Positions 13,311 through 58,794 of a DNA stretch of 64,000 bases are shown in pieces (the stretch's first letter is position 1; each line of letters begins with the position of its first letter). The notes below the pieces were generated by a model, which was given only the letters and a program-made list of their open reading frames with translations, was not told where the DNA came from and did no database searches. The stretch is from Cepaea nemoralis (lineage: Eukaryota > Mollusca > Gastropoda > Stylommatophora > Helicidae). The position numbers were made by a program, and so were the translations under genes. Where the stretch lies: the NCBI GenBank assembly GCA_014155875.1, contig JACEFZ010011667.1:96001-160000 (forward strand), in the 5' to 3' direction.

Positions 13311-13888
13311 CGAGGGTAAGTTAATAAGTAAGTCACAGATGGCTGTAGAATAATAACTAAATATGATAACAACTTGAAACCAGTTTATTTTTATACATAC
13401 ATTGCCCTTTTATTCCTCAACATAATTTCCACCAACATTGATGAACTTATCCCATAGTTTTATCAGTTCTCCCATACCGGCTGTATAGAACTGCGCGCTA
13501 TGTTTTCTAAACCATGTTTTCACTTCACATTCAACTTCGGCGTCATTCGCGAAATGTCTCCCGCCAAGGTGGGTTTACAGTGGACTTAGCCCCTAGCGAT
13601 TTCCAGTAAAGCGGTGCATAGCTGGGTAGAAAAAGTTACGAGGGCGAGTCAATAATTAAGTCACGCAGTTCTGTGGGATGGCAGGTAAATGAGAACACGC
13701 CATCCCGATCTATGCAGTCGGTTTTGAGAGAACTGATAAAACTATGGGATAAGTGCATCAATGATGGTGGAAATTATGTTGAGAAATAAAGCGACAATGC
13801 ATGTATACAAATAAACTGGTTTCAAGTTGTTATCATATTTAGTTATTTTTCTACTACCATTGGTGACTTACTTATTAACTTACCCTTG
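13311..13888. mobile_element. Mariner-derived compound insert with TA target duplication
   Basis: A 578-bp insert flanked by TA. The outer ends are inverted: CGAGGGTAAGTTAATAAGTA on the left and its complement (CAAGGGTAAGTTAATAAG) on the right. Both arms carry the same transposase C-terminus. The left arm is on the minus strand (DAEVECEVKTWF, GELIKLWDKFINVGGNYVEE). The right arm is on the plus strand (ELIKLWDKCINDGGNYVEK, then stop) and has its own 5' end at 13640 (CGAGGGCGAGTCAATAATTA). It is therefore an inverted pair of mariner 3' ends, one of them a deletion derivative. Similar end sequence recurs at 48998-49130. Confidence 0.8.
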
Positions 13889-18221: not shown

Positions 18222-18231
18222 ATTTTCATTT

Positions 18232-21200
18232 GTCTCATTCTCTTGTCTCATGTCCGTTGCCTCGTGTCTTATACTCTTGTCTCATGTCTCTTGTCTCTTG
18301 TCTCTTGTCTCATGTCGCATGTCTCTTGTCTCTTGTCTCTTGTCTCATGTCGCATGTCTCTTGTCTCATGTCTCTTGTCTCATGTCGCATGTCTCTTGTC
18401 TCTTGTCTCTTGTCTCTTGTCGCATGTCTCTTGTCTCATGTCTCTTGTCTCATGTCTCTTGTCTCTTGTCTCATGTCCCTTGTCTCTTGTCTCATGTCTC
18501 ATGTCTTTTGTCTCCTGTCTCATGTCTCTTGTCTAATGTATCTTGTCTCATGTATCTTGTCTCATGTATATTGTCTCATCTCTCATGTCTCATGTCTCTT
18601 GTCTCATGTATCTTGTCTCATGTCCCTTGCCTCGTGTCTCATGTCTCATTCTATTGTCTCTTGTTTCATGTCTCCTATCTCTTATTTCATGTCTCTTGAC
18701 TCATGTGCCATTACCTCTAGTCTCATGTCTCTTGTCTCATTGTCTTGTCTCATGTCTCTTGTCTCATGTCTCTTGTCTCATGTCTCTTGTCCATTGTCTC
18801 ATGTCTCTTGTCTCATGTCTCTTATTTCAGGTCTCATGTCTCATCTCTCTTGTCCCTTCTCTCATGTCTCTTGTCTCATGTCTTACGTCTCTTGTCTCAT
18901 GTCTCTTGTCTCATGTCTCTTGTCTCTTGTCTAATGTCGCTTATCTCTGTGTTTTATGACTCTTGTCTCATGTCCCTTGTCTCTTGTCTCATGTCTCTTG
19001 TCTCATGTCTCATGTCTCATGTCTCTTGTCTCATGTCTCTTGATCTCATGTCTCTTGTCTCATGTCTCTTGTCTCATGTATCTTGTTTCATGTCCCTGTT
19101 CTCATGTCTCTTGTCCCATGTCCATTGCCTAATGTATATTGTCTCATGTCCTTTGTCTTATGCCTCTTGTGTCTCTTGTCTCTTGCCCCGTGTCTCTTGT
19201 CTCATGTTTCTTGTTTCTTGTACCGTGTCTCATGTCTCTTGACTCATGTCCATTACCTCTTGTCTCATGTCTCTTGTCTCATTGTCTTGTCTCATGTCTC
19301 TTGTCTCATGTCTCTTGTCCATTATCTCATGTCTCTTGTCTCATGTCCTATGTCTCTTGTCTCATGTCTCTTGTCTCATGTATTTTGTTTCATGTCCCTG
19401 TTCTCATGTCTCTTGTCCCATGTCCATTGCCTCATGTATATTGTCTCATGTCCCTTGTCTTATGTCTCTTGTCTCTTGTTTCTTGCCCCGTGTCTCTTGT
19501 CTCATGTCTCTTGGTTCTTGTACCGTGTCTCATGTCTCTTGTCTCATGTCTCTTGTCTCATGTCTCTTGTCTCATGTCTCTTGTCGCATGTCTCTTGTCT
19601 CATGTCTCTTGTCTCATGTCTCTTGTCTCATGTCTTTTGCCTCTTGTCTCATGTCTCATGTCTCATATCTCTTGTCTCTTGTCTTATATCTCATCTCTCC
19701 TGTCTCTTCTCTCATGTCTCTTGTCTCATGTCTCTTGTCACATGTCCCATGTCTCTTGTCTCTTGTCTCTAGTCTCATGTCTCTTGACTCATGTCTCATG
19801 TCTCTTGTCTCATGTCCTTTGTCTTATGTCTCTTGCCTCATGTCTTACCTCTCTTGTCTCTTACCTCATGTCTCTTGTCTCATGTCCATTGTCTAGTGTC
19901 TTTTGCCTTATGACGCTTGTCTCTTGTCTTATCTCTCTTGGCTCTTGATTCATGTGTCGTGACTAATGTATCTTGTCTCATGTCTCATTTATAACGTCTC
20001 TTATCTAATGTCTCTTGTCTCATGTCTCTTGTCTCATGTCTCTTGTCTCATCTCTCTATCTTGTCTATTGTCTCTTCTCTCATGTCCCTTCTCTCATGTC
20101 CCTTTTCTCTGTTTTCTCGACTATCTTGTCGCATGTCTCTTGTCTCATGTCTCGTCTCATGTCTCTTGTCTCATGTCTCTTGTCTCTTGTCTCATGTCTC
20201 TTGTCTCATGTCTATTGCCTCATGTCTTATCTCTCTTATCTCTTGCCTCATGTCTCTTGCCTCATGTCCCTTGTCTAGTATCTCTTGTCTCATAACGCTT
20301 GTCGCATGTCTTATTTTTCTTGTCTCTTGTCTCATGTCTCTTGTCTCTGGTCTCATGTCGCTTGTCTCATGTCCCTAGTCTCATTTCTCATGTCTCTTGT
20401 CTGTTTACTCATGTCTCACATCTCATGTCATATGTCTCATATCTCGTGTCTCTTGCCTCATTCTCTTGTCTCATATCTCATGTCTCTTGTCTCATTCTCT
20501 TGTCTCGTGTCCACTGCCTCGTGTCTTATGTCTCTTGTCTCTTGTCTCATGTCTCTTGTCTCATGTCCCCTGTCTCTTGTCTCATGTCGCATGTCTCTTG
20601 TCTCATGTCCCTTGTCTCATGTCTCATGCCTCTTGTCTCTTGTCACATGCCCCTTGTCTCTTGTCTCATGTCTCATGTCTTTTGTCTCTTGTGTCATTCT
20701 CATGTCTCATGTCTCATGTCTCTTGTCTCATGTCTCTTGTTTCATGTCCCTTGCCTCTTGCCTCATGCCTCTGGTCTCTTGTCTCATGTCGCTTGTCTCA
20801 TGTATCTTGTCTCATGTCAATTGTCTCATCTCTCAGGTCTCATGTATCGTTTCTTGTATCTTGTCTCATGTCTCTTGTCTGATGTTTCATGTCTCCTGTC
20901 TCTTGTTTTATGTCTCTTGTCTCATGTCCGTTATCTCTTGTCTCATGTCTCTTGTCTCTTTGTCTCATGTCCCCTGTATAATGCTTCATGTCTCTTGTCT
21001 CATGTCTCTTGTCTCATGTCCCTTGTCTCATGACTCATGTCTCATGTCTCTTGTCTCATGTCTCTTGTATATTGTCACATGTCTCTTGTTTAATGCCCCT
21101 GTTATCATGTCTCTTGTCCCATGTCCATTGCCTCATGTCTTTTGTCTCCTGTCCCTTGTCTTATGCCTCTTGTCTCTTGTTTCTTGTCCCGTGTCTCTTG

Positions 21201-22364
21201 TCTCTTGTCTCATGTCTGTTGCCTCTTGTATCATGTCTCTTGTCTCATGTCTCTTGTTTCATTTCTCGTGCCTCTTGTCGCATGCCTCTTGTCCCATGTC
21301 TCTTGTCTCATATCTCATCTCTCTTGTCTCATGTCTATTATCTCATTTCCCTTGTCACACGTCTCATGTCTCTTTTCTTACGTCTCTTGTCTCACGTATC
21401 TTGTGTCTTGTCTCATATCTCATATATCTTGTCTCTTGTCTCTTGTCTCATGTTCTTGTCTCATGTCTCGTGTCCATTGTCTCATGTCTCTTGTCTCTTG
21501 TCTTATGTCTCTTGTCCATTGTCACATGTCTCTTGTCTCATGTCTCTTGTTTCATGTCTCTTGTCTCATGTCTCATCTCTCTTGTCTCTTCTCTCGTGTC
21601 TTACGTCTCTTGTCTCATGTCTCTTCTATCATGTTTCATGTCTCTTGTCTCTTGTCTCATGTCGCTTGTCTCTAGGTCTCATGTCTCTTGTCTCTTGTCT
21701 CCTGTCTGTTGTCTCTTGTCTCATGTTTCATGTCTCTTGTCTCATGTCTCTTGTCTCATGTCTCTTGTCTCATGTATCTTGTCTCATGTTTCATGTCTCT
21801 TATTTCATGTCTCTTGTCTCATGCCTATTGTCTCTTGTTTCATGTCTGTTGGCTCTAGGCTCTTATCCCTTTTCTCTTGTTTCTTGTCCCTTGTTTCTTG
21901 CCTCTTGTTTCTTGTCTCATGTCTCATTTTTCTTGTCTCAGGTCTCATATCTCTTTTCTCTTGCATCTTGTCTCATGTCTCTTGTCTCTTGTCTCATTTC
22001 TTATGTCTCTTGTGTCATGTCTCTTGTCTCATGTCGCATTTCTCATGTCTCTTTTCTCTTGTCTCTTGTCTCAATTCTCTTGTCTCTTGCCTCTTGTCGC
22101 ATGTCTCTTGTCTCATGTCTCTTGTCTCATGTCGCATGTCTCTTGTCTCTTGTCTCTTGTCTCTTGTCTCATGTCTCTTGTCTCATGTCTCTTGTCACAT
22201 GTCTCATATCTCTTGCCTCTTGTCTCATGTCTCTTGTCACATGTCTCATATCTCTTGCCTACTTGTCTTATGTCTCATATCTCTTGCCTCTTGTCTCATG
22301 TCTCCTGACACATTTCTCTTGTCTCATATCTCTCGCATCATGCCTCTTGTTTCTTGTCTCGTGT

Positions 22365-22368
<4 letters not shown>
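18232..22368. repeat. Heptamer satellite (TCTCWTG)n, about 4.1 kb
   Basis: Roughly 590 tandem heptamers, nearly all TCTCATG or TCTCTTG, with scattered single-base variants (TCTCGTG, TCTAATG, TCCCTTG). Seven is not a multiple of three, so all three plus frames cycle through the same 21-bp register and all stay open for long distances (peptides rich in MSLVSCLMSHVSCL). The minus strand meets TGA in every frame. These long frames are repeat artefacts with no start context or domain. Confidence 0.97.
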
Positions 22369-22429
<61 letters not shown>

Positions 22430-43124: not shown

Positions 43125-43406
43125 TTCGAACGTCTTGTTTGTCACTCCTCCTGACGATGACATAGTCAATGAGGTGCCAGTGTTTCTAGCGAGGGTGTAT
43201 CCATGATGTTCTATTTCTCGTGAGAAGACAGAAAATTGTGGTGGTGATCAGGAGATCGTGTTCGGCACAGGTCTGAAGGAGGAGGAGCCCATAGCTGTTA
43301 CAATTTCCGACTCCGTACTTTTTAATGATACCACTCCATGAGGCGGTGTCCTTGCCTACTCTGGCTTTGAAGTCCCCAAGGAGTATAAGTTTTGTCTCCT
43401 TTGTCA
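43125..43406 (-). pseudogene. Endonuclease remnant of A2
   Basis: Contains TKLILLGDFKARVG (catalytic D retained, N changed to K), GNCNSYGLLLLQTCAEHDLL and a trailing RNRTSWIHPR. It is truncated at the 5' boundary of the copy. Confidence 0.78.
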
Positions 43407-43533
43407 TATAATATCTAGAGATTAACATTACAACGTTGCAGATTTACAAGTATGCTTGCACTGAATGCCGTACATGTACAAGGACACGTGATATCTGCAA
43501 AGTGACATGGCGAAGTTACAGATTTACAAAAGA
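43407..43533 (-). repeat. Inverted relic of EGF exon head plus splice acceptor
   Basis: Read on the minus strand, this is an intron tail 'gtaaatctgtaactt', then TTTGCAG, then an exon head resembling 48316-48360 (GTACGGCATTCAGTGCAAGC). It runs straight into a second intron tail ('acttgtaaatctgcaacgttg', 'atctctagatattatatga'). It is about 1.5 units of the 81-bp repeat that precedes the real EGF exon 4.8 kb away. A one-base deletion breaks the reading frame of the relic. Confidence 0.78.
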
Positions 43534-43794: not shown

Positions 43795-43900
43795 AACACA
43801 AACAGATCTAAATACAGCGAATGCCGTACGTGTTCACTCGACACATTACATCCGCAGATTGACATGGCACAGTTACAGATTTACAAGTAGTGTGCTGACA
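43795..43900 (-). repeat. Second inverted relic of EGF exon head plus acceptor
   Basis: The minus strand reads 'acttgtaaatctgtaactg', 'ccatgtcaatctgc', then GGATGTAATGTGTCGAGTGA and ACACGTACGGCATTC. This parallels 48280-48355 closely. The acceptor AG is mutated to GG here. It is an 81-bp-unit relic separated from the first by about 260 bp of other DNA. Confidence 0.75.
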
Positions 43901-48184: not shown

Positions 48185-48315
48185 CGCGGTATTCAGTGAT
48201 TATAAATCTGTAACGTTGCAATGTTAATCTGTAGATATTATATGCCCAGTGAAGACGTTCGGCATTAAATGTGAGCACACTTGTAAATCTGTAACTTTGT
48301 CATGTCAATCTGCAG
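48185..48315 (+). repeat. 81-bp tandem unit spanning a 3' splice site
   Basis: The intron tail and exon head of the EGF exon are duplicated upstream with an 81-bp step (48235 to 48316). The upstream unit reads 'tctgtag', ATATTATATGCCCAGTGAAG, 'acgttcggcattaaatgtgagcac', 'acttgtaaatctgtaac'. It mirrors the true acceptor plus exon start and then re-enters intron tail. A partial third unit begins at about 48185 ('cggtattcagtg'). The upstream exon-head copies do not run on into the rest of the exon, so they are decoys. Confidence 0.8.
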
Positions 48316-48552
48316 ATGTCTCGTGCCCATTGAACAAGTACGGCATTCAGTGCGAGCAAACGTGTGCTTGTTCTTCCTCTAACTTATGCCAGGTCACCAC
48401 GGGGATGTGCAGTGGCGATTGTCCGTTGGGGTTCTACGGCAGCCGGTGTCAGCAGCATTGCCCCGTACACTGCCTCAACAAGCAGTGTCATCAAACCTCG
48501 GGAGACTGCTTCCAGTGCTCGCCTGGCTACTTGGGGGACAGATGTCTCGATG
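48316..48552 (+). CDS. Host gene exon: EGF-like repeats (1.75 modules)
   Basis: A 237-bp exon (79 codons, phase 1-1) encoding MEGF/laminin-type EGF modules. Cysteine landmarks are SCPLNKYGIQCEQTC, then CSSSNLCQVTTGMCSGDC, PLGFYGSRCQQHC, PVHCLNKQC, SGDCFQC and SPGYLGDRCLD. The GF/Y-G-x-x-C turns between the last cysteines are diagnostic. Acceptor TCTGCAG|AT, donor GATG|GTGAGA. The split codons complete as D at the start and E when joined to 49650 (RCLD-E-CPMDKYG). Extracellular adhesion or scavenging is the family role. The preceding 81-bp duplications offer competing acceptors. Confidence 0.88.
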
Positions 48553-48882: not shown

Positions 48883-49130
<248 letters not shown>

Positions 49131-49649
49131 CTCTGTGTTCATAAAGCAGAATGTCCTGTGTGTTCATATAGCAGAATATCATCTGTGTTCATATAGCAGA
49201 ATGTCCTCTGTGTTCATCTACCAGAATGTCCTCTGTGTTCATCTACCAGAATGTTCTCTGTGTTCATATAGCAGAATGTCCTCTGTGTTCATATAGCAGA
49301 ATGTCCTCTGTGTTCATATAGCAGAATATCCTCTGTGTTCATATAGCAGATTGTCCTCTGTGTTCATCTACCAGAATGTCCTCTGTGTTCATCTTCGAGA
49401 ATGTCCTCTGTGTTCATCTACTAGCATGTCCTCTGTGTTCATCTACGAGAATGTTCTCTGTGTTCGTATAGCAGAATGTCCTCTGTGTTCATATAGCAGA
49501 ATATCTTCTGTGTTCATATAGCAGAATGTTCTCTGTGTTCATTTACCAGAATGTCCTCTGTGTTCGTATAGCAGAATGTCCTCTGTGTTCATATAGCAGA
49601 ATGTCCTCTGTGTTCATATAGCAGAATGTCCTCTATGTTCTTTTACCAG
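49131..49649 (+). repeat. 25-bp minisatellite carrying a splice acceptor in every unit, about 21 copies
   Basis: The unit is CTGTGTTCATATAGCAG followed by AATGTCCT, period 25 bp. Variants end CTACCAG instead of ATAGCAG. The last unit (TTCTTTTACCAG, ending 49649) is the actual 3' splice site, and its AATGTCC is the first part of the EGF exon at 49650. The array is therefore a tandem expansion of an acceptor junction. Using an upstream AG would add 25n bp; the unit read through in the exon frame reaches a stop (ATA-TAG) within 16 codons unless n is a multiple of three. Confidence 0.9.
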
Positions 49650-49781
49650 AATGTCCAATGGACAAGTACGGGAACAAGTGTGAGTCGACATGCAGCGCCT
49701 TCTGTGCCTACAACACCTGTGACAATGTCTCTGGCAACTGCTCCGCGTGTACAGTAGGTCACACAGGGATCAAGTGCCAAG
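49650..49781 (+). CDS. Host gene exon: one EGF-like module
   Basis: A 132-bp exon (44 codons, phase 1-1) coding one laminin/MEGF-type EGF module: ECPMDKYGNKCESTC, SAFCAYNTC, DNVSGNCSAC, TVGHTGIKCQ. It has the eight-cysteine spacing and an N-glycosylation sequon NVS. Acceptor TTTTACCAG|AA, donor CAAG|GTATGT. Length and phase are identical to the next exon at 58663. The acceptor is embedded in the 25-bp minisatellite. Confidence 0.88.
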
Positions 49782-53594: not shown

Positions 53595-56500
53595 GGGAAT
53601 GTTGGTGAATTTTGAAACGAGCCGGCGGGCAGATTGGCTGGGTCTGCACAGTTGGGCGGGGTATTGGAGGATTGGCTTGGTCTGCACAGTTGGGCGGGGT
53701 ATTAGTGGATTGGCTGGGTCTGTACAGTTGGGAGGGGTATTGGTGGATTGGTTGGGTCTGCACAGTTGGGAGGGGTATTGGTGGATTGGCTGGGTCTGCA
53801 CAGTTGGGAGGGGTATTGGAGGATTGGCTGGGTCTGCACAGTTGGGCGGGGTATTAGTGGATTGGCTGGGTCTGTACAGTTGGGAGGGGTATTGGTGGAT
53901 TGGCTGGGTCTGCACAGTTGGGCGGGGTATTAGTGGATTGGCTGGGTCTGTACAGTTGGGAGGGGTATTGGTGGATTGGCTGGGTCTGCACAGTTGGGAG
54001 GGAGGGGTATTGGTGGATTGGCTGAGTCTGCACAGTTGGGAGGGGGGGGGGGTATTGGGGGATTGGCTAGATCTGTACAGTTGGGAGGGAGGGGTATTGG
54101 TGGATTGGCTGGGTCTGTACAGTGGGGGGGGGGGGGTATTGGTGGATTGGCTAGATCTGCACAGTTGGGAGGGGTATTGGTGGATTGGCTAGATCTGTAC
54201 AGTTGGGAGGGAGGGGTATTGGTGGATTGGCTGGGTCTGTACAGTTGGGAGGGAGGGGTATTGGTGGATTGGCTGGGTCTGTACAGTTGGGGGGGGGGGG
54301 GGGTATTGGTGGATTGGCTGGGTCTGTACAGTTGGGAGGGAGGGGTATTGGTGGATTGGCTAGATCTGTACAGTTGGGAGGGAGGGGTATTGGTGGATTG
54401 GCTGGGTCTGTACAGTTGGGAGGGAGGGGTATTGGTGGATTGGCTGGGTCTGCACAGTTGGGGGGGGGGGGTATTGGTGGATTGGCTAGATCTGTATAGT
54501 TGGGAGGCAGGGGTATTGGTGGATTGGCTGGGTCTGTACAGTTGGGAGGGAGGGGTATTGGTGGATTGGATGGGTCTGCACAGTTGGGAGGGGGGGGGGG
54601 TATTGGTGGATTGGCTGGGTCGCACTAGTTGGGAGGGAGGGGTATTGGTGGATTGGCTAGATCTGCACAGTTGGGAGGGGGGTATTGGTGGATTGGCTAG
54701 ATCTGCTACAGTTGGGAGGGAGGGGTATTGGTGGATTGGCTGGGTCTGTACAGTTGGGAGGGAGGGGTATTGGTGGATTGGCTGGGTCTGCACAGTTGGG
54801 AAGGGGGGGAGGTATTGGTGGATTGGCTGGGTCTGCACAGTTGGGAGGGAGGGGTATTGGTGGATTGGCTGGGTCTGCACAGTTGGGAGGGAGGGGTATT
54901 GGGGGATTGGCTAGATCTATACAGTTGGGAGGGAGGGGTATTGGTGGATTGGCTGGGTCTGCACAGTTGGGAGGGAGGGGTATTGGGGGATTGGCTAGAT
55001 CTGTACATTTTGGAGGGGGGTATTGGGGGATTGGCTGGGTCTGCACAGTTGGGAGGGGGGGGGTATTGGGGGATTGGCTAAATCTGTACAGTTGGGAGGG
55101 AGGGGTATTGGTGGATTGGGCTGGGTCTGCACAGTTGCGGGGGGGGGGGGGTATTGGTGGATTGGCTGGGTCTGCACAGTTGGGAAGGAGGGGTATTGGG
55201 GGATTGGCTAGATCTGCACAGTTGGGAGGGGTATTGGTGGATTGGCTGGGTCTGCACAGTTGGGGGGGGGGGGGTTATTGGGGGATTGGCTAGATCTGCA
55301 CAGTTGGGAGGGGTATTAGTGGATTGGCTGGGTCCTGCCACAGTTGGGAGGGAGGGGTATTGGTGGATTGGCTGGGTCTGCACAGTTGGGAGGGGTATTG
55401 GTGGATTGGCTAGATCTGCACAGTTGGGAGGGGTATTGGTGGATTGCTTGGGTCTGCACAGTTGGGAGGGGTATTGGTGGATTGGCTGGGTTGCACAGTT
55501 GGGAGGGTATTGGTGGATTGGCTAGATCTGCACAGTTGGGAGGGGTATTGGTGGATTGGCTGGGTTCCTGCCACAGTTGGGGGGGGGGGGTATGGTGGAT
55601 TGGCTGGGTCCTGCACAGTTGGGAGGGAGGGGTATTGGGTGGATTGGCTGGGTCTGCACAGTTGGGAGGGAGGGGTATTGGTGGATTGGCTAGATCTGCA
55701 ACAGTTGGGAGGGGTATTGGTGGATTGGCTAGATCTGTTACAGTTGGGAGGGAGGGGTATTGGTGGATTGGCTGGGTCTGTACAGTTGGGAGGGAGGGGT
55801 ATTGGTGGATTGGCTGGGCCTGCCACAGTTGGGAGGGGGTATTGATGGATTGGCTGGGTCTGCACAGTTGGGCGGGGTATTAGTGGATTGGCTGGGTCTG
55901 CTACAGTTGGGAGGGGTATTGGGTGGATTGGCTGGGTCTGCATTGGGAGGAGGGGTTGGGAGGCTGGGTCTGCACAGTGGAGGGGGTTGCACAGTGGGTG
56001 AGTGGGGGGGAGGGGGGATTGGGGATTGGCAGTCTGTACAGGGGGGAGGGGTATTGGTGGATTGGCTGGGTCTGTACAGTGGGGGGGGGGTATTGGGGAT
56101 TGGCTGATCTGCACAGTTGGGAGGGTATTGGTGAATTGCTAGATCTGACAGTGGGGGGGGGGTATTGGTGGATTGGCTTGGGGGATTGGCTGGGTCTGCA
56201 CAGTTGGGAGGGGGGGGGGGTATGGGGGATTGGCTAGATCTGTACAGTTGGGAGGGATGGGTATTGGTGGATGGCTGGGTCTGCACAGTTGGGGGGGGGG
56301 GGGTATTGGTGGATGGCTGGATCTGCACAGTTGGGAGGGAGGGGTATTGGGGGATTGGCTAGATCTGCAGTTGGGAGGGGTATTGGTGGATTGGCTGGGT
56401 CTGCACAGTTGGGGGGGGGGGGGGATTGGGGGATTGGCTAGATCTGCACAGTTGGGAGGGGTATTGGTGGATTGGCTGGGTCTGCACAGTTGGGAGGGAG

Positions 56501-57615
56501 GGGTTATTGGTTGATTGGCTGGGTCTGCACAGTTGGGAGGGGTATTGGTGGATTGGCTAGATCTGCACAGTTGGAGGGGTATTGGTGGATTGCTTGGGTC
56601 TGCACAGTTGGGAGGGGTATTGGTGGATTGGCTGGGTCTGCACAGTTGGAGGGGTGTTGGTGGATTGGCTAGATCTGCACAGTTGGGAGGGGTATTGGTG
56701 GATTGGCTGGGTCTGCACAGTTTGGGGGGGGGGGGTATTGGGGGATTGGCTAGATCTGCACAGTTGGGAGGGGTATTGGTGGATTGGCTGGGTCTGCACA
56801 GTTGGGGGGGAGGGGGTATTGGGGGATTGGCTAGATCTGCACAGTTGGGAAGGGGTAATGGTGGATTGGCTGGGTCTGCACAGTTGGGAGGGGTATTGGT
56901 GGAATGGCTGGGTCTGCACAGTTGGGAGGGAGGGGTATTGGTGGATTGGCTGGGTCTGCACAGTTGGGAGGGAGGGGTATTGGTGGATTGGCTGGGTCTG
57001 CACATTTGGGAGGGAGGGGTATTGGTGGATTGGCTGGGTCTGCACAGTTGGGAGGGAGGGGTATTGGTGGATTGGCTGGGTCTGCACAGTTGGGAGGGAG
57101 GGGTATGGTGGATTGGCTGGGTCTGCACAGTTGGGAGGGGTATTGGTGGATTCGCTAGGTCTGCACAGTTGGGAGGGAGGGGTATTGGTGGATTGGCTGG
57201 GTCTGCACAGTTGGGAGGGAGGGGTATTGGTGGATTGGCTGGGTCTGCACAGTTGGGAGGGAGGGGTATTGGTGGATTCGCTAGGTCTGCACAGTTGGGA
57301 GGGAGGGGTATTGGTGGATTGGCTGGGTCTGCACAGTTGGGAGGGGTATTGGGGGATTGGCTAGATCTGCACAGTTGGGAGGGAGGGGTATTGGTGGATT
57401 GCTTGGGTCTGCATAGTTGGGAGAGGTATTAGTGGATTGGCTGGGTCTGCACAGTTGGGAGGGGTATTGGTGGGATTTCGCTAGGGCAAGTGGGAGGGTT
57501 ATTCGCTAGGTCTGCACAGTTGGGAGGGGTATTGGTGGATTGGCTGGGTCTGCACAGTTGGGAGGGGTATTGGTGGATTGCTTGGGTCTGCACAGTTGGG
57601 AGGGGTATTGGTGCA
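53595..57615. repeat. 38/42-bp G-rich minisatellite, about 4 kb
   Basis: Roughly 100 units of TTGGCTGGGTCTGCACAGTT followed by GGGAGGGGTATTGGTGGA (38 bp) or GGGAGGGAGGGGTATTGGTGGA (42 bp). G-runs expand to 8-13 in several units. Two sub-variants alternate (GGCTGGGTCTG and GGCTAGATCTG). Each 42-bp unit has four closely spaced G-runs. Period mixing makes open frames drift through W/G/L-rich peptides on plus and P/N/S-rich peptides on minus; none is a gene. Confidence 0.97.
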
Positions 57616-58662: not shown

Positions 58663-58794
58663 ATTGTCCAATTGGTAAATTTGGAATGGCGTGCTCACAA
58701 CCCTGCTCCCGTTATTGCAAGAACAAAACGTGTGACTACAACAGCGGTAAATGCATGGGATGCAGAAATGGTCATATAGGGGATACCTGTACAG
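58663..58794 (+). CDS. Host gene exon: one EGF-like module
   Basis: A 132-bp exon (44 codons, phase 1-1): DCPIGKFGMACSQPC, SRYCKNKTC (with sequon NKT), DYNSGKCMGC, RNGHIGDTCT. It is the same length and cysteine pattern as 49650-49781, consistent with exon duplication. Acceptor GTACTATTTCAG|AT has a good pyrimidine tract. Donor ACAG|GTGCGT. No tandem array is seen at this acceptor, unlike the two upstream EGF exons. Later exons (more EGF, transmembrane) are not found before the window end. Confidence 0.88.

Follow-up and report, generated by a model that had tools for sequence, protein, structure and literature searches.

A probable mirage-type 25-bp minisatellite across the acceptor of an EGF exon in the land snail Cepaea nemoralis

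Minisatellite-like tandem duplications that cover an intron/exon boundary, known as mirages, have been described in amphioxus, in Adh3, the globin genes BflGb6 and BflGb9, troponin C and PGBD5; many of their units, though not every one, hold a decoy AG (PMC3087553, PMC3902484). BflGb6 haplotypes have six versus three units, the edges of mirage clusters are spared from homogenisation, and regular splicing is reported to proceed undisturbed by mirages (PMC3087553, PMC3902484). In human segmental duplications, exon-intron boundaries can carry variable internal tandem repeats, whose expansion may alter splicing; these average ~4 units of 30 bp and half are in coding exons (PMC2812944). The human CBS gene has a 31-bp VNTR, c.1444_1467+7(16_21), that is described as length-polymorphic with 16-21 copies and as crossing a splice boundary (PMC2630376). 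By its name, this VNTR crosses a donor (24 nt of exon and 7 nt of intron), whereas the array described below crosses an acceptor. The CBS repeat is reportedly linked to reduced enzyme activity, to judge from the title of a paper. Our searches of an open-licence library turned up acceptor mirages in amphioxus only.

We analyzed a window of 64,000 nucleotides (the whole stretch of DNA introduced above) from Cepaea nemoralis. It contains a 25-bp array that is probably of the mirage type, a kind already described in amphioxus; what is new is its place in a large EGF gene family. Like the amphioxus mirages, the array spans a boundary, has decoy AGs, and differs in unit number between probable haplotypes, and its unit is within the range of 10-72 bp given for Adh3. 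Unlike them, it is in another gene family, its 21 and 40 units exceed those of BflGb6, and it is known from sequence alone. The amphioxus genome is far smaller than the 3.47-Gb assembly used here. In contrast to the repeats in human segmental duplications, every decoy product here is closed by a stop.

Table 1. Exons, repeats and acceptor-spanning duplications at the array and at one related locus.
Feature	Position	Strand	Description
Truncated dispersed repeat with inverted ends	48998..49132	+	90-93% identical to 13313-13446 and 13886-13753 (inverted)
Second acceptor-spanning tandem duplication	48203..48365	+	TRF: 81-bp unit x2, 76% matches; before exon 48316
Preceding EGF exon	48316..48552	+	237 nt, two EGF repeats, phase 1-1; SCARF1 match over query residues 3-91
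25-bp minisatellite	49131..49656	+	TRF: 21.0 copies, 90% matches, score 800
Last unit, presumed real acceptor (...ATGTTCTTTTACCAG)	49625..49649	+	Longest pyrimidine run (7) among the 21 units
EGF exon behind the array	49650..49781	+	132 nt, phase 1-1, donor GTATGT; frame and cysteine pattern common to sister exons
Next EGF exon	58663..58794	+	132 nt, phase 1-1
Third acceptor-spanning duplication	L052 1403-1512 (contig C25868:382639 exon)		53-bp unit, 2.1 copies

Judged by its EGF exons, through which it is known here, the gene is of the scavenger-receptor/MEGF type. The three exons in the window join into one open frame of 167 residues, with repeated EGF units of ~43 residues on phase 1-1 exons, as in scavenger-receptor class F and MEGF-type genes. 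The best solved relative was scavenger receptor class F member 1 (SCARF1; E 3.1e-7). Pfam returned only a weak EGF match below the cut-off, and a search of the three-exon protein against a database of 5.8 billion proteins gave 2 candidates, none at E <= 0.001. Scanning for promoters and terminators yielded nothing useful. A profile search found a fourth EGF exon ~9.4 kb beyond the third, outside the window at contig position 164172 (E 1.9e-10); the profile was built from the first three exons, exon 49650 among them, and so lends that exon no independent support. At two further loci in the genome, the match is confined to query residues 77-123, the part that comes from exon 49650 (47% identity), and this favours a genuine exon unit. 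Counting second copies, these exons have at least 154 matches in the snail's own genome (3.47 Gb, 26,579 contigs), indicating that the gene belongs to a large family. One of them (L042, C10802:194131-194268) is a copy of exon 58663-58794, situated ~39 kb further downstream on this contig and 93% identical to the query protein in that span. We found no acceptor duplication at exon 58663-58794.

Each unit of the array holds an intron end, an AG and an exon start. The 25 bp consist of AATGTCC, the 7-nt exon head, and TCTGTGTTCATATAGCAG, the 18-nt intron tail. Divided into units that line up with the real acceptor AG (49648-49649), the array has an AG at the end of all 21 units, 12 of which end in ATAGCAG, 3 in CTACCAG, 2 in TTACCAG and 4 in other sequences, and AATGTCC or a variant of it with one or two changed bases heads units 2-21. 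With tandem units in the range of ~10-100 bp and a variable unit number, the array is a minisatellite (VNTR). The last unit has 14 pyrimidines in 17 positions and no second AG nearby. The word TTCAT, which we take to be branch-point-like (yUnAy), is present in 18 of the 21 units, with its A 33 nt before the AG that ends the following unit, and it may serve as a branch point. The homology to the dispersed repeat breaks off at ~49132, where the array begins. An earlier note on this DNA had described about 21 tandem copies of a 25-bp acceptor unit (intron tail, AG and exon head) offering about 20 upstream decoys to the exon that itself begins with AATGTCC. The TRF result, the register of the AGs, the count of 20 decoys and the open frame that this phase 1-1 exon forms with its neighbours all agree with that description. 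The note had let the feature run to 49781; the array in fact stops 7 nt inside the exon and sits at the boundary whose sequence it repeats.

Use of any decoy would ruin the message. A decoy k units upstream lengthens the exon by 25k nt, and all 20 decoys lead to a stop, in the exon through a frameshift for k=1 and 2, and at a TAG within the array for k=3 to 20. That every third decoy keeps the frame, as the earlier note had it, was correct as arithmetic and without effect, since the six in-frame decoys (k=3, 6, 9, 12, 15 and 18) all meet a TAG inside the array, which rules out longer in-frame isoforms. In the 40-unit copy of the array (below), all 39 upstream unit ends likewise lead to a stop; the AG is kept in 35 of these 39. 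Because the upstream unit ends of both copies meet stops, neither copy is predicted to yield a longer receptor isoform. The array itself does differ in length between the two assembled copies.

We scored the decoys with a matrix made from 21 acceptors of the same EGF family, exon 49650 being left out. The real site scored 8.25 and the decoys 2.6-11.5; it was equalled by one and exceeded by 15 of the 20 decoys, so that 16 reach its score. The matrix is built on few sites and discriminates loosely (its training sites scored -3.8 to 12.0 when left out, 3 of 21 below 1), includes some uncertain and some related acceptors, and ignores branch points and exon signals. Among 695 intronic AGs, the 99th percentile was 7.63, and the decoy median was above 99.7% of them. 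The inner TAG of TAGCAG units scored low (-2.2 to 2.0). The decoys had been called pyrimidine-poor; by the standard of the family they are not. We also asked whether the decoy AGs are under selection. Across 25 distinct inner units, the AG columns had 1.0 changes per column, compared to 1.6 in columns 1-18 and 5.4 in columns 19-23, where ATAGC and CTACC alternate. The AG columns are barely less changed than columns 1-18, so that there is no clear sign of decoys being kept.

A second copy of the region has a longer array. Contig C13181 is collinear with contig positions 86,001-174,384, in blocks of up to 24 kb that are 98.3-99.4% identical outside arrays and 93.5-95% identical where blocks cross arrays, with two gaps of ~2.5 kb; its array has 40 units versus 21. 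From this level of identity, C13181 is probably the other haplotype; less probably, it is a segmental duplication of recent origin. Both arrays run through their variant units in one order, D E B B F A ... G H I J A K in the 5' part and L C A A M at the 3' end, and the additional units of the longer array, with private variants, are internal. We compared seven large arrays between the two copies: four agree in copy number, one is a single unit off, and strong differences are seen in two, the 25-bp array and a 42-bp array (97.7 vs 141 units). The 42-bp array, at 53632-57604, occupies much of the next intron. Another array, of 4 kb with pyrimidine-rich 14/21-bp units (TGTCTCTTGTCTC...) at 18231-22389, is of nearly equal length in both copies.

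Two other acceptors in the family are spanned by tandem duplications. The 81-bp unit before exon 48316 again comprises intron tail, AG and exon head; its upstream AG is at 48233-48234, 10 of 30 boundary bases are changed, and splicing at the upstream copy would keep the frame, meet no stop and add 27 residues. Further copies of this unit, inverted, are present among repeats 4-5 kb upstream (43405-43526 and 43819-43883). The 53-bp unit is at another EGF exon of the family, and its decoy copy leads to a stop. Together with the 25-bp array, these make 3 of the 21 EGF exons with an acceptor among the best 30 of at least 154 loci. For the remaining 18, the 700 nt of upstream sequence that were compared held nothing closer to the boundary than 13 mismatches in 30, the background level.

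Arrays were not enriched on acceptors. With up to 10 mismatches in 30 allowed, repeats covered 243 of 1200 positions drawn at random upstream in these loci, compared to 3 of the 21 exons; with up to 6, the numbers were 207 of 1200, 64 of these from the two loci of the 25-bp array itself, and 2 of 21. The 30 loci (L037-L066) are the best-scoring matches and no random sample; six second copies (L038, L040, L043, L047, L062 and L065) and three matches within long open frames (L044, L050 and L054) were dropped to reach 21. L046 and L047, which share no more than 89% identity over 1 kb, may be paralogues. The 21 include related loci (L039/L042; L055/L057/L060; L058/L066). The choice of acceptor is uncertain for L049, L051, L055, L056 and L057; TRF, which is independent of that choice, found no array across the exon starts of these five. 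Tandem arrays of period 8 or more make up 22% of the window. As acceptors are captured at about the chance rate, a repeat-rich genome suffices as explanation, and the interest of the captured acceptors is in their being tolerated, not in their frequency. Arrays were also seen near donors: at L046/L047, L052, L053 and L064, arrays with units of 14, 41, 52 and 123 bp start 12-17 nt behind the donor and look as if they fill introns up to the splice signals. The 14-bp unit is present in 13.6 copies at L046 and 30.6 at the similar locus L047.

Based on these results, we think it likely that the array is a mirage-type minisatellite in which the exon's own acceptor region was copied in tandem, that it is mostly neutral, and that the acceptor closest to the exon is used. 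A 25-bp segment covering the end of the intron and 7 nt at the start of the EGF exon would have been duplicated by slippage or unequal exchange, the array would have grown upstream as far as the truncated repeat element, and internal turnover of units would have produced the difference of 21 vs 40. The copying probably went from exon to array, as suggested by the exon word: AATGTCC encodes the E-C-P start for which sister exons use ATTGTCC and ACTGTCC, and since this word is common to the exon family, the simplest assumption is that it entered the array from the exon. The reverse order, in which the minisatellite came first from a dispersed repeat family and the last unit became an acceptor by chance or by recruitment, appears improbable. 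It would fit the position of the array against a repeat-element remnant and the presence of arrays that share words with the 25-bp unit at 14 other loci, mostly with periods of 20-28 (e.g., TGTTCATATAGCAG in L014 and CCAGAATGTCC in L022); in the 11 of them whose 3' flank was covered (all but L017, L018 and L020), a simple cysteine-pattern scan and reading of the flank found no EGF exon adjoining the array. If these loci are one dispersed family, the array might be the older. Against this order, nothing in the 3.47 Gb matched the array better than these 14 loci, at 65-76% identity. The coding of E-C-P by the 7 exon nucleotides, spelled slightly differently in sister exons, and the 81- and 53-bp duplications, which indicate copying from exon boundaries, also speak against it. 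That the array or its copy numbers were mis-assembled is very improbable. Tandem arrays in general are prone to mis-assembly, and the two copies of this one place are unequal in length; against this, the order of variant units is the same at both ends, the private variants are inside the longer array, and copy number agrees in four of the seven large arrays.

Under the preferred reading, the last acceptor would be used because it is nearest to the exon; it has the longest pyrimidine run, and counting against its use is its rank on the small matrix, where it is not the best site. Transcripts spliced at a decoy, all stop-bearing, should be destroyed, and the array would be mostly neutral load. 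It is unlikely, in our opinion, that the decoys instead compete with the real acceptor and divert transcripts to decay, with array length setting the output of the gene. The high decoy scores, the stops behind all 20 decoys and the twofold length difference between copies speak for such an effect. The scores nevertheless come from a matrix with the weaknesses described above, the AG columns (1.0 changes) are little more constant than columns 1-18 of the unit (1.6), the AG is lost in 4 of the 40 unit ends of the longer copy, and amphioxus mirages are reported without disturbance of splicing (PMC3087553, PMC3902484). A broader proposal, that splice boundaries of this family repeatedly seed arrays (25, 81 and 53 bp; three acceptors) and that the number of units at 49131-49656 sets the loss of transcripts to decoys, we consider quite doubtful; if true, the array would be an allele-length dial on a receptor gene.

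We conclude that the array is probably harmless to this gene, even though any decoy that was used would be destructive. It places 20-40 nearly equal acceptors in front of one exon, in two lengths and with every decoy closed by a stop. It thereby offers a natural experiment on spliceosomal choice between equal AGs and on the ways in which new introns or exons may arise.
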